Positions 9,510-52,256 of a stretch of 64,000 bases of DNA are shown here, piece after piece. The notes beneath the pieces are model-generated. The model was not told the DNA's origin and did not search any database. It worked only from the letters and a program-made list of their open reading frames with translations. The position numbers and the translations under genes are program-made. Every line of letters starts with the position of its first letter. Positions within the stretch are counted from its first letter, which is position 1. The stretch comes from Nitrosopumilus sp. (GTDB lineage: Archaea; Thermoproteota; Nitrososphaeria; Nitrososphaerales; Nitrosopumilaceae): NCBI RefSeq assembly GCF_025698945.1, contig NZ_JAILWM010000001.1, positions 248,001 through 312,000 on the forward strand. Reading direction: 5' to 3'.

Positions 9510-10073
9510 ATGCCACAGACAAAGCCCATTGTAAGTATTGAAAATGTTGTGGCCTCAGCTACAATTGATCAGGACTTAGATCTTGATGTTATTCAGAAAA
9601 AATTTCCTAAAGTAGAGTACAATCCTGAACAATTCCCTGGCGCCGTTTTTCGACTTACAAAGCCCAAGACTGCAACATTACTATTTAGGACTGGGAAGAT
9701 GGTTTGTACTGGCTCAAAATCAGAAGACATGGCAAGAAAAGCAGTCAAAACAGTAGTAGAGCAGCTCAGAGAAGGAAAAATCAAAATAAAAAAAGAAGCA
9801 ATAGTCACCATTCAAAATATTGTAGCATCAATTAATCTTGGAGGAAAGATTCACCTTGAAAAAGCAGCAAGAACAGTGCCGCGAAGCATGTATGAGCCTG
9901 AGCAGTTTCCAGGATTAATCCACAGGATGCTTGATCCAAAAGTAGTGATCCTGATTTTTGCATCAGGTAAACTAGTTTGCACTGGCGGAAAGACTGCACA
10001 AGAAGTATACCGTGCAGTAAACTCTTTGCATGTTTTGCTTGAGGAGAAAGGACTGATGCTGTATGACAGTTAA
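9510..10073 (+). CDS. tbp: TATA-binding protein
   Basis: This is a TBP of about 187 residues made of two direct repeats of about 90 residues. Each repeat has an IENVVAS/IQNIVAS strand, a YNPEQFPG/YEPEQFPG stirrup motif, and KMVCTGSKS/KLVCTGGKT. These features define the DNA-binding saddle that recruits TFB and RNA polymerase to archaeal promoters. I prefer ATG 9510 (MPQTKP) to the in-frame ATG 9498, because a TATA box sits near 9477. The C-terminus ends LMLYDS without the acidic tail seen in some euryarchaeal TBPs. The partner TFB is at 51339. Confidence 0.95.
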   Translation: MPQTKPIVSIENVVASATIDQDLDLDVIQKKFPKVEYNPEQFPGAVFRLTKPKTATLLFRTGKMVCTGSKSEDMARKAVKTVVEQLREGKIKIKKEAIVTIQNIVASINLGGKIHLEKAARTVPRSMYEPEQFPGLIHRMLDPKVVILIFASGKLVCTGGKTAQEVYRAVNSLHVLLEEKGLMLYDS

Positions 10074-10929: not shown

Positions 10930-11082
10930 TCAGCCCTTAAGAGGATTTGAGTTATCCCAATACCATTTTTGAGTATAATTGTCTGGTTTTTCAGGATGAG
11001 CTTTATTATAATGTCGAACTAATCGGATCTCTTCAGTAAATGTCATTTGACATTTATTGCATTTGAATGGTTTATCTTTCAT
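10930..11082 (-). CDS. C2H2 zinc-finger microprotein, 50 aa
   Basis: The 50-residue product contains one classical C2H2 finger, FKCNKCQMTFTEEIRLVRHY followed by NKAH. It has C-x2-C, a conserved Phe and a Leu-x2-His arrangement. A short tail (YTQKWYWDNSNPLKG) follows. It starts at ATG 11082 and ends at 10930, one base before the next gene. Single C2H2 fingers of this kind recur in the window (27315, 27447, 48590, 48790). Nucleic-acid or protein binding is inferred. Confidence 0.7.
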   Translation of the reverse strand: MKDKPFKCNKCQMTFTEEIRLVRHYNKAHPEKPDNYTQKWYWDNSNPLKG

Positions 11083-27314: not shown

Positions 27315-27443
27315 TTAATTTTCAATTTTTTCATTCTTATGAATTGTCTTGTAATGTCTTTGCAAAAACCCTTCTCCCTGCAACATCTTGCCACAAATCT
27401 CACATTTTACCCTGTTTCGCATGTTCATACTATCATAATTCAT
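27315..27443 (-). CDS. C2H2 zinc-finger microprotein, 42 aa
   Basis: The 42-residue product carries one finger, VKCEICGKMLQGEGFLQRHY followed by KTIH. This is C-x2-C-x12-H-x4-H with hydrophobic core residues in place. It begins three bases after the stop of the neighbouring zinc-finger gene, so the two are likely cotranscribed. Confidence 0.7.
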   Translation of the reverse strand: MNYDSMNMRNRVKCEICGKMLQGEGFLQRHYKTIHKNEKIEN

Positions 27444-27446
27444 AAT

Positions 27447-27578
27447 TTAATTGTGGTTTAGTGCAATGTGTGCTCGCAGTCTTGTGATGAGAATCTTTTG
27501 GCTGCATTCTGGACAGTTTACTGAAAACATGCCGAACTCTTCTTCTGAAATTAGGTATTGATTAACATTACTATTCAT
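27447..27578 (-). CDS. C2H2-like zinc-finger microprotein, 43 aa
   Basis: The 43-residue product has NCPECSQKILITRLRAHIAL followed by NHN, a shortened C-x2-C...H-x4-H finger. It is the first gene of the two-gene micro zinc-finger unit and starts at ATG 27578. The N-terminal YLISEEEFGMF segment is acidic. Confidence 0.65.
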   Translation of the reverse strand: MNSNVNQYLISEEEFGMFSVNCPECSQKILITRLRAHIALNHN

Positions 27579-48348: not shown

Positions 48349-48472
48349 ATATGTTGGCGTGCAAACCAATTACTGATAAAAGAATAGTTTTAAGCCAATA
48401 AACCTTGCTTCTGGTGAGTAGATAATATCTGTCTAATACACCGGTATATATCACAGAGAAACAATATAGAGT

Positions 48473-48589
48473 ATGTTAAAACAAATAATTGAAAAACTGA
48501 AATTTGGTGCTTGTAAAACCAAAAACGCTAGTAAGGAAACTTCACATGTTGAATCTGAGAAAAAGAAATCAGAGGATATAGAAAAATAA
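48473..48589 (+). CDS. Micro protein opening the zinc-finger cluster, 38 aa
   Basis: The 38-residue product starts MLKQIIEKLKFGACKTKNAS and ends in a charged stretch (EKKKSEDIEK). It has only one Cys, so it is not itself a zinc finger. Its TAA is directly followed by the ATG of the first zinc-finger gene. A leader peptide function is possible. Confidence 0.45.
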   Translation: MLKQIIEKLKFGACKTKNASKETSHVESEKKKSEDIEK

Positions 48590-48697
48590 ATGACATATCA
48601 TTGTAAACACTGCAATTTTACTTGGGATTCATCTCAAGGAGATATTCAAAAATTACTTCTCCATGAAAAAACTCATCAAAAGAAGGCCTCTGATTAA
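48590..48697 (+). CDS. C2H2 zinc-finger microprotein, 35 aa
   Basis: The 35-residue product is little more than one finger: YHCKHCNFTWDSSQGDIQKL, then LLHEKTH and a basic tail. Ligands are C-x2-C and H-x3-H. It begins at the base after the preceding stop, and its stop is directly followed by the next ATG. Confidence 0.65.
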   Translation: MTYHCKHCNFTWDSSQGDIQKLLLHEKTHQKKASD

Positions 48698-48793
48698 ATG
48701 TTAACTTGTAACAAGTGCTATAACGGACATCATGATCAATGTATGGGAAAAGCTGGGATGTATGATTGCGGCTGTGAATGTTTTAAAAAATGA
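48698..48793 (+). CDS. Cys/His-rich microprotein, 31 aa
   Basis: The 31-residue product has seven Cys or adjacent metal-type residues: CNKCYNGHHDQC and DCGCECF. This could bind one or two metal ions. Its last four bases overlap the next start as ATGA, which shows translational coupling. Confidence 0.6.
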   Translation: MLTCNKCYNGHHDQCMGKAGMYDCGCECFKK

Positions 48794-48915
48794 AATATCA
48801 ATGTGCTAAATGTGATTTCCATTGGATTGGAACTTCATATACTTTTGATGAGGTACGTAAACATGAAGCAACACATAAGAAAAAAAATGTGCAAAAACGC
48901 ACTTCTAAAAAATGA
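48790..48915 (+). CDS. C2H2 zinc-finger microprotein, 41 aa
   Basis: The 41-residue product carries YQCAKCDFHWIGTSYTFDEV, then RKHEATH and a basic tail (KKKNVQKRTSKK). It is clearly related to the 48590 protein (C-x2-C-x-F-x-W...H-x3-H), with a stop one codon after the tail. Confidence 0.65.
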   Translation: MKYQCAKCDFHWIGTSYTFDEVRKHEATHKKKNVQKRTSKK

Positions 48916-48937
48916 TTAATTGAGATGGATTCTTTTT

Positions 48938-49054
48938 ATGAATAAGACAAAATGTGATAGATGTGGTTCTCTTTTAGGGACTGAAAGTAGGAAAACCAAG
49001 CAGCGCTTTTGCGGTAATTGTAAAAAGAAATTTCAATTATATCGAGATAAATAG
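48938..49054 (+). CDS. Zinc-ribbon microprotein, 38 aa
   Basis: The 38-residue product has KCDRCGSLLGTES and RFCGNCKKKFQLYRDK, two C-x2-C pairs that predict a zinc ribbon. It is the last of the run and starts 22 bases after the previous stop. Confidence 0.65.
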   Translation: MNKTKCDRCGSLLGTESRKTKQRFCGNCKKKFQLYRDK

Positions 49055-49130
49055 ATAATTTTTTGCTGTCTCTAATTACTTCACTCATAATTTATTTTTA
49101 GATAAATAGTAGTTTGCCCTAATATCGTGT

Positions 49131-50770: not shown

Positions 50771-50908
50771 ATGTCAGAAGATAGAAAAATGTATCCTATG
50801 AAGTGCTCCGATTGTGGTGCAGCATCAGAGGTGCCTTTTGAACCAAAACCAGACAGACCAGTATACTGCAAAGAATGTCTACCAAAACATAGAACCAGAA
50901 GCTTTTAG
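50771..50908 (+). CDS. Zinc-ribbon protein of the VPF-x-P-x-x-RPVYC type, 45 aa
   Basis: The 45-residue product reads MKCSDCGAASEVPFEPKPDR then PVYCKECLPKHR. The C-x2-C-G...VPF-x-P...RPVYC-x2-C pattern is a known small zinc-ribbon family of archaea and bacteria. It starts at ATG 50771 and is not part of a clear operon. Confidence 0.75.
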   Translation: MSEDRKMYPMKCSDCGAASEVPFEPKPDRPVYCKECLPKHRTRSF

Positions 50909-51043: not shown

Positions 51044-51328
51044 ATGTTAAACAATACAAGAGATACAATTTTCATTGGTAAGAAACCACTAATGACTTAT
51101 GTCACTTCTGCTATTATTCAATTAGCAACACTTCCATTAGTTACAGTCAAAGCTAGGGGATTGATCATCGCACATGCTGTTGATGTGGTACAGATAGTTC
51201 TCCAAAAAACCAACCCTGCATTTGTTGTAGGTGATGTAAAAATTGGTTCAGAATCATTAGAGTCACAAGATGGCAGAACTAGAAATGTCTCCACGATAGA
51301 AATCTCTATTAAAAGGAAGACTGCATGA
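51044..51328 (+). CDS. alba: Alba chromatin protein
   Basis: The 94-residue protein has the Alba pattern. DTIFIGKKPLMTYVTSAIIQ includes the basic G-K-K-P loop that contacts DNA or RNA, followed by VTVKARGLIIAHAVDVVQIV and the C-terminal STIEISIKRK. Alba dimers coat DNA and RNA in archaea. Length and motifs are complete. The TFB gene follows 10 bases downstream, so the two may be cotranscribed. Confidence 0.95.
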   Translation: MLNNTRDTIFIGKKPLMTYVTSAIIQLATLPLVTVKARGLIIAHAVDVVQIVLQKTNPAFVVGDVKIGSESLESQDGRTRNVSTIEISIKRKTA

Positions 51329-51338
51329 GGGCAATTAT

Positions 51339-52256
51339 ATGGTAACTGTTAATGCAAAATCCAGTTGTCTGCGTTGTGGAAAAAATTCATTATTAACTGA
51401 TGAAGTAACCGGTGAGCAATTTTGCTCAAAATGCGGTTATGTGATTAATGAAAAATCTCAAGAATCTGGACCTGAATGGAGATCATTTCAAAAAGATGGT
51501 GGTTCAGATCCTGCAAGAACTGGAGCTCCATCATCACTTACAATTCATGACATGGGATTATCTACTGTTATCAATCCATTAAACAAAGATGCCTCTGGAA
51601 AACCACTTTCCACTTCAATGAAAAGTACTATTGAAAGATTACGAACATGGGATAGCAGAAGTCAAGTTCATGAACCAATCGATAGAAATCTCAGACAAGC
51701 TCTAAGTGAATTAAACAGACTTAAAGATAAAATTGCAATATCTGCAAATGTTTTAGAGAAAGCAGCTTACATTTACAGAAAAGCTTTAGAGAAAAAATTA
51801 GTTAGAGGAAGATCAATTTCTGCAATGATAGCTGCATCCCTTTATGCTGCATGTCGCGATACTGAAACACCTAGAACACTAAAAGATGTTGCAGATGCAG
51901 CAAATGTAAAGAGAAAAGATATCGCACGATGTTATCGATTGCTTCACCATGAATTGGAACTAAAGATGCCTGTTGTAGATTCAATTCAATGTATAGCAAG
52001 AATTTCAAGCAAACTGGAAATTACTGAAAAAACAAAACGTTATGCAGTAAAAGTTCTCAAAGAGGCTCAAGAGCGTAAAGAATCTGCTGGAAAAGATCCA
52101 ATGGGGCTTGCAGCTTCTGCATTGTATTTGTCATGTGTTCATAATGGGGTATCTGTAACTCAAAGAGATATTGCAGAAGCAGCTGGTGTAACTGAAGTTA
52201 CAATCAGAAATCGATACAAGGGACTAAAGGCAGAGCATTCTCCAAAAGATGAATAA
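51339..52256 (+). CDS. tfb: Transcription initiation factor TFB
   Basis: The 305-residue protein is a TFIIB homologue. The N-terminal zinc ribbon has Cys 10, 13, 29 and 32 (CLRCGKNS and CSKCGYVINE). The B-finger/linker follows (GPEWRSFQKDGGSDPARTGA), then two cyclin folds. The helix-turn-helix near the C-terminus (VTQRDIAEAAGVTEVTIRNR) binds the BRE beside the TATA box. It works with the TBP at 9510. Some thaumarchaea carry several TFBs; this one looks complete and canonical. Confidence 0.96.
   Translation: MVTVNAKSSCLRCGKNSLLTDEVTGEQFCSKCGYVINEKSQESGPEWRSFQKDGGSDPARTGAPSSLTIHDMGLSTVINPLNKDASGKPLSTSMKSTIERLRTWDSRSQVHEPIDRNLRQALSELNRLKDKIAISANVLEKAAYIYRKALEKKLVRGRSISAMIAASLYAACRDTETPRTLKDVADAANVKRKDIARCYRLLHHELELKMPVVDSIQCIARISSKLEITEKTKRYAVKVLKEAQERKESAGKDPMGLAASALYLSCVHNGVSVTQRDIAEAAGVTEVTIRNRYKGLKAEHSPKDE

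Follow-up and report, generated by a model that had tools for sequence, protein, structure and literature searches.

In Haloferax volcanii the C(P)XCG μ-proteins, such as HVO_0758 and HVO_2753, are single-domain proteins of less than 70 aa with two ligand pairs, and many of these haloarchaeal μ-proteins are zinc binders whose deletion causes a phenotype (PMC6562870, PMC11241148, PMC10716476). Brz of Halobacterium salinarum is a small zinc-finger regulator of transcription (PMC2253796), and with Ros/MucR there is a prokaryotic C2H2 finger acting in transcription (PMC6562870). The initial annotation of the locus presented here had held a polycistron of single-finger proteins to be undescribed. 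This still stands, since we found neither such a polycistron nor an operon of this type in ammonia-oxidising archaea in the open-access literature.

The locus lies in a stretch of 64,000 nucleotides from Nitrosopumilus sp., which is called the window in the following. It comprises these features:

48444 to 48450, plus strand: TATA box GTATATA, 29 nt before the ATG of ORF1, with ACACCG in front of the box
48473 to 48589, plus strand: ORF1, 38 aa, ATG start, basic amphipathic N-terminus (F/L)KKIIEKLKFG and a DVNAFxESEKKK-like tail
48590 to 48697, plus strand: ORF2, 35 aa, ATG start, single C2H2 finger Y-x-C-x2-C-x3-W-x9-L-x2-H-x3-H
48698 to 48793, plus strand: ORF3, 31 aa, ATG start, Cys/His protein of the CNKC family, C-x2-C-x4-H-x2-C-x8-C-x-C
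48790 to 48915, plus strand: ORF4, 41 aa, ATG start, second C2H2 finger with a basic tail
48938 to 49054, plus strand: ORF5, 38 aa, ATG start, C4 zinc ribbon, strongly basic with a charge of about +8.5
49059 to 49064, plus strand: T6 tract just after ORF5, by sequence inspection a candidate transcription terminator

The annotation had described five consecutive genes of 31–41 codons which abut or overlap. All five lie where it had placed them, and the ATGA coupling it claimed is present as a 4-nt overlap at ORF3/ORF4, but this is the only overlapping pair: at ORF1/ORF2 and ORF2/ORF3 the genes abut (TAA/ATG, 0 nt) and a 22-nt gap separates ORF4 from ORF5.

As the ORFs are very short and without an annotated family (no match above cut-off in Pfam, NCBIfam, PHROG or PADLOC for any of the families), one might regard them as spurious or take the region for a structured RNA. 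This is hardly credible in view of selection at the codon level. The frames are open in all distinct homologues that were compared (39 for ORF1, 59 for C2H2, 75 for CNKC and 11 for the ribbon) and the other frames are closed by stops in most of them; the pooled pN/pS amounts to 0.40 for ORF1, 0.32 for C2H2 (ORF2), 0.20 for CNKC (ORF3) and 0.14 for the ribbon (ORF5), and third codon positions are in excess, making up 43–64% of the differences across the four families. A structured RNA was also rejected with Rfam, where the best match (E 0.22) was below threshold. In the window there are 10 ATG-started ORFs of 28–65 aa with two zinc-ligand pairs, compared with 0.9 in Markov-shuffled sequence, and four of these two-ligand-pair ORFs fall within 465 bp, with a mean of 0.0 tandem pairs per shuffle (40 shuffles). 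Judged by their sequences, the five ORFs are real genes, with all four families under purifying selection.

Not all of the encoded proteins appear to be zinc fingers. ORF1, listed with one Cys, had been counted as part of the zinc-finger run, and this assignment had to be given up: among 39 distinct homologues Cys14 is retained in only 69% of copies, and because its single Cys is not conserved ORF1 is predicted to be no zinc finger. In most copies a C2H2 gene follows ORF1 directly. For the other families conservation of the Cys and His residues in relatives, on which the annotation had made its proposal depend, is evident, as C2H2, CNKC and ribbon proteins keep their ligands to 97–100%.

In the C2H2 family the ligands C5, C8, H25 and H29 are found in 98%, 97%, 100% and 98% of 59 distinct homologues, and W12 in 100%. 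AlphaFold2 folds ORF2, in a model without metal, into beta-beta-alpha (strands 2–4 and 11–13, helix 19–33; pLDDT 82, pTM 0.44), and a Foldseek search with this model returned weak matches, C2H2 fingers among them, every one with E >4. Since AlphaFold2 models of fingers are said to be independent of the ligands (PMC11241148), the model is no proof of zinc binding. Compared with the classical C2H2 finger (PF00096 and relatives), which has two Cys on a hairpin and two His on a helix, the ligand order and the hydrophobic positions are alike and the predicted beta-beta-alpha fold may be shared; however, in ORF2 there are nine residues from the aromatic residue to the Leu instead of five. Neither ORF2 nor ORF4 matches Pfam zf-C2H2 PF00096, and their best match to a C2H2-type Pfam family, zf-C2H2_ZNF462_11, reaches E 0.084 and 13.1 bits against a cut-off of 27. 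ORF2 and ORF4 had been called clear paralogues. They do belong to one family (for ORF4 by profile, E 1.7e-18), but the two are only 34% identical, and as ORF4 is closer to C2H2' (66%), which this genome encodes in a second operon, it is not a simple tandem copy of ORF2. By protein profile the family occurs in 63 of 200 Nitrosopumilaceae genomes and 7 of 22 genera with up to 7 copies per genome; it is not generally essential, since more than half of the Nitrosopumilaceae genomes do without it. A decaying paralogue is seen in N. salaria BD31 (L082, 3283–3387), where Cys8 and His29 are missing from the copy of ORF2 and ORF3 and ORF4 are intact.

The CNKC family is distributed more widely by the same kind of search (105 of 200 Nitrosopumilaceae genomes, 13 of 22 genera). 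Its ligands are conserved in 75 distinct homologues to 97% (C4), 99% (C7), 99% (H12), 100% (C15), 97% (C24) and 100% (C26). The AlphaFold2 model of ORF3 is poor (pLDDT 63). Membership in the PHD or rubredoxin families was rejected, the matches being weak and partial: the full C4HC3 cross-brace set of PHD/RING is absent from ORF3, likeness to PHD is confined to the first half, and the best PHD/RING-like scores are E 0.0016 per member and E 0.23 against the PDB. In ORF5 all four Cys are invariant in 11 distinct homologues. It follows ORF4 only in the lineage of the window, L077 and L079 and occupies loci of its own in other species; by this distribution ORF5 is a lineage-specific addition to the run.

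The high Cys/His content of ORF2–ORF5 could also be explained if the proteins were zinc-storage or zinc-responsive peptides for metal buffering and not regulators. We consider this very improbable: the fold-type spacing and the conserved hydrophobic residues Y3, F10, W12 and L/V22 go beyond what storage needs, non-ligand residues are conserved as well (e.g., HDQCMGKAGMF in ORF3) and the genes showed no linkage to those of metal transport.

With a DNA search the region was found in 24 of 61 genomes, all 24 of one genus, and among GTDB contigs 69 loci were detected, in relatives mostly named Nitrosopumilus. In a class-wide sample of 300 genomes the C2H2 and CNKC matches were, among those listed, all within the Nitrosopumilaceae. 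The unit ORF1-C2H2-CNKC (48473–48793 in the window) is widespread in this family; the full five-gene order occurs also in two other species (L077, L079) and a four-gene order in L002. Behind ORF1-C2H2 the next gene is CNKC at 23 loci, an RCxVC ribbon at 5 and rarely others. In the second operon of the same genome (G000:C1 near 340,850, minus strand) the genes for ORF1', C2H2' and a zinc ribbon of another kind overlap one another at ATGA and TAATG. As the third gene varies, a second operon exists and ORF5 is elsewhere found at separate loci, the run is best described, from gene order and sequence, as a conserved core of ORF1-C2H2-CNKC with a lineage-specific second C2H2 gene and zinc ribbon. 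Another tandem pair of single-finger microproteins, of C2H2 and C2HC type and 3 bp apart, is encoded in the window at 27315–27443 and 27447–27578 (minus strand). A few hundred bases past the five-gene run, L077 (4568–4717) and L079 (2293–2442) encode Lys/Ala-rich, histone-H1-like proteins of 49 aa.

The position of the promoter is conserved. A TATA-like box is located at −29 to −31 in 33 of 35 distinct ORF1 copies (exactly at −29 in 25, at −30/−31 in 8) and at such a position in 3% of shuffled upstream sequences. In archaeal promoters the distance from the TATA box to the transcription start is about 25 nt. With the box fixed 29–31 nt before the ATG, the predicted transcription start coincides with the ORF1 start codon or lies right beside it, which would yield a leaderless or nearly leaderless mRNA. 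Use of the promoter motif as a genome-wide regulon was rejected, because WDCRYCRGTATATA has a single exact match in the genome, so that the pattern marks the ORF1–ORF5 operon; the second operon has a variant. About 50 nt upstream of many ORF1 copies (e.g., L085, L106, L123) there is a TTAGGCrtgAAA-like element, which is absent from the copy in the window. Archaeal terminators are commonly T-rich, as is the T6 tract behind ORF5.

Most junctions in relatives measure −4 to +2 nt: CNKC follows C2H2 with a spacing of −1 nt at 23 loci and of 0 nt at 5, and the −4 nt overlap from CNKC to C2H2 is kept in L077, L079 and L002. Two reports describe such spacings as giving translational coupling in archaea (PMC6728339, PMC10666635). 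The coupled gene run which had been claimed is therefore borne out as a compact operon which is probably translationally coupled. The downstream cistrons would be translated by termination–reinitiation and the partners made together. According to one of these reports, closely spaced archaeal junctions often link subunits of heteromeric complexes (PMC10666635), so that the co-translated fingers and ORF1 might form a complex, that is, one multi-finger transcription factor with its fingers in separate genes. The conserved order with junctions of 0 to −4 nt, the position of ORF1 ahead of C2H2 in the majority of copies and the two C2H2 genes of the window operon fit this idea, but CNKC and C2H2 genes occur also solitarily and hence without a fixed stoichiometry, and we regard such a complex as improbable.

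What may point to a function is the neighborhood of the genes. In the window two genes are relevant:

51044 to 51328, plus strand: Alba gene (Pfam Alba, E 3.4e-10), 2 kb downstream of the run and immediately before TFB
51339 to 52256, plus strand: TFB (TFIIB-like) gene (Pfam TFIIB, E 1.1e-38)

In the orthologous neighborhood of L146 and L147 CNKC and C2H2 genes are found inside or beside this Alba/TFB gene run. Clustering of the flanking genes in 70 contigs gave TFB in 19, TBP in 17 and Alba in 9. One of the three lies at most 4 kb away in 25 of the 70 contigs (about 5 expected) and at most 350 bp away in 18 (about 0.4 expected), the expectations being derived from gene numbers per 1.7 Mb of about 9 (TFB), 3 (TBP) and 4 (Alba); these counts ignore the kinship of the contigs, and binomial values overstate the significance because contigs are related and ten divergent TBP-CNKC pairs are probably one inherited locus. 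For 22 whole genomes, among the TFB matches listed, at least 9 of 59 microprotein loci have such a gene no more than 3 kb away, with at least 2.2 expected, and so do at least 7 of the 13 loci with both C2H2 and CNKC; most stand-alone C2H2 copies in these genomes are not close to TBP, TFB and Alba. The following layouts were found:

Alba-C2H2-CNKC-x-TFB in one direction: L078, L084, L086, L093, L146 (Alba adjoins C2H2 in the first four)
CNKC-x-TFB-C2H2: L147
unit convergent with TBP-TFB: L085, L116
five-gene run, then TBP and TFB: L077
CNKC divergent from TBP, 48–67 bp apart: ten loci
TFB then CNKC, with TFB 25 bp upstream: L100
Alba-TFB-Lsm-like gene, then C2H2-CNKC: L096, L098

The variety of these layouts argues that the association with TBP, TFB and Alba arose or was retained more than once. 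Several further small genes are found in these neighborhoods. Between CNKC and TFB a protein of 78 aa, MTKRIEEELAEMNRLKRLELEFLFFKTKMD..., without a Pfam match is encoded in L146 (2221–2457, minus strand) and also in L078, L084, L086 and L093. Just before Alba and TFB the window encodes a 45-aa treble-clef protein (50771–50908, plus strand; Pfam zf_Tbcl_2, E 4.8e-17), an order repeated in L146. A single C2H2 protein of 50 aa (MKDKPFKCNKCQMTF...; 10930–11082, minus strand) with a near-threshold zf-C2H2 score is encoded in the window about 0.9 kb from a TBP gene at 9531–10043.

Because the genes are repeatedly linked to TBP, TFB and Alba, and this in several layouts, including Alba-C2H2-CNKC-x-TFB in one direction, we infer that ORF1–ORF5 could encode small accessory factors which are translated together and assist basal transcription or chromatin, a reading to which we give an even chance. 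Each finger would bind one zinc, the single fingers would serve as small trans-acting factors binding nucleic acid and/or basal factors, and in this way they would tune transcription or chromatin as set by TBP, TFB and Alba. The main alternative, which we judge rather unlikely, is that the microproteins are individually dispensable, have unrelated roles (in stress, at the surface or in binding RNA or proteins) and have gathered in hotspots of TFB and TBP paralogues, the linkage being positional only. TFB, TBP and microprotein genes could have a common integration hotspot, and the patchy distribution, the up to 7 copies per genome, the decayed copy in L082, the many stand-alone copies and the interchangeable third zinc genes behind ORF1-C2H2 are as expected from such gathering; however, the abutting co-directional Alba-C2H2-CNKC-x-TFB runs and the distinct layouts exceed a shared neighborhood, and purifying selection is strong. 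An extension of the accessory-factor reading is that the separately encoded co-translated fingers assemble with ORF1 into a "split" multi-finger factor on promoters that carry TBP, TFB and Alba. This is speculative and seems to us quite unlikely, and the same applies to the view that the split factor is a basal-transcription module specific to the Nitrosopumilaceae and, built from microproteins, would correspond in archaea to the polyfinger C2H2 regulators.

A role in defence was rejected as there was no PADLOC match, and the best PHROG match of the five ORFs to phage families had E 0.028. No viral relative of ORF3 was found, so that no transfer can be claimed and a viral origin was rejected. 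Five uncultivated viral contigs from IMG/VR (L071–L075, near 4001) encode proteins of 81–92 aa which open with a related C2H2 finger; behind the finger there is a second Cys/His module, and other microproteins are encoded around them.

The recurrent adjacency of the microprotein unit to TBP, TFB and Alba is new and had been overlooked in the first reading of the locus. The proteins of these short, conserved Nitrosopumilaceae operons, 31–41 residues long and mostly single zinc fingers, are probably easily overlooked helpers of transcription. If so, one of the most abundant marine archaeal groups would have a layer of microprotein regulators absent from the family libraries and attached to many TFB and TBP paralogues of the Nitrosopumilaceae, C2H2-type fingers would be used singly and outside the eukaryotes, and there would be testable candidates for transcription control in small genomes with few classical regulators.

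Ros-type proteins are larger and have a different finger spacing. Compared by description, Ros/MucR thus has the C2H2 finger in common with ORF2 and ORF4 and differs from them in size and spacing. Brz, likewise set apart by description, is a single gene beside its target bop, unlike the operon presented here. With regard to the haloarchaeal μ-proteins, which are defined by a pair of C(P)XCG motifs and a length of less than 70 aa, no such motifs are present in ORF2, ORF3 and ORF4; ORF5 with CDRCG and CGNCK has a single CxxCG motif and scores 16.1 bits (E 0.008) against the HVO_0758 family NF041912 with its cut-off of 70 bits. The Nitrosopumilaceae microproteins, as far as their sequences tell, are a separate set: like the μ-proteins of H. 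volcanii they are small and single-domain with two ligand pairs, but the latter are C4 proteins of the C(P)XCG type, whereas here C2H2 and C3H-like fingers are encoded in a coupled operon, often beside TBP, TFB or Alba.
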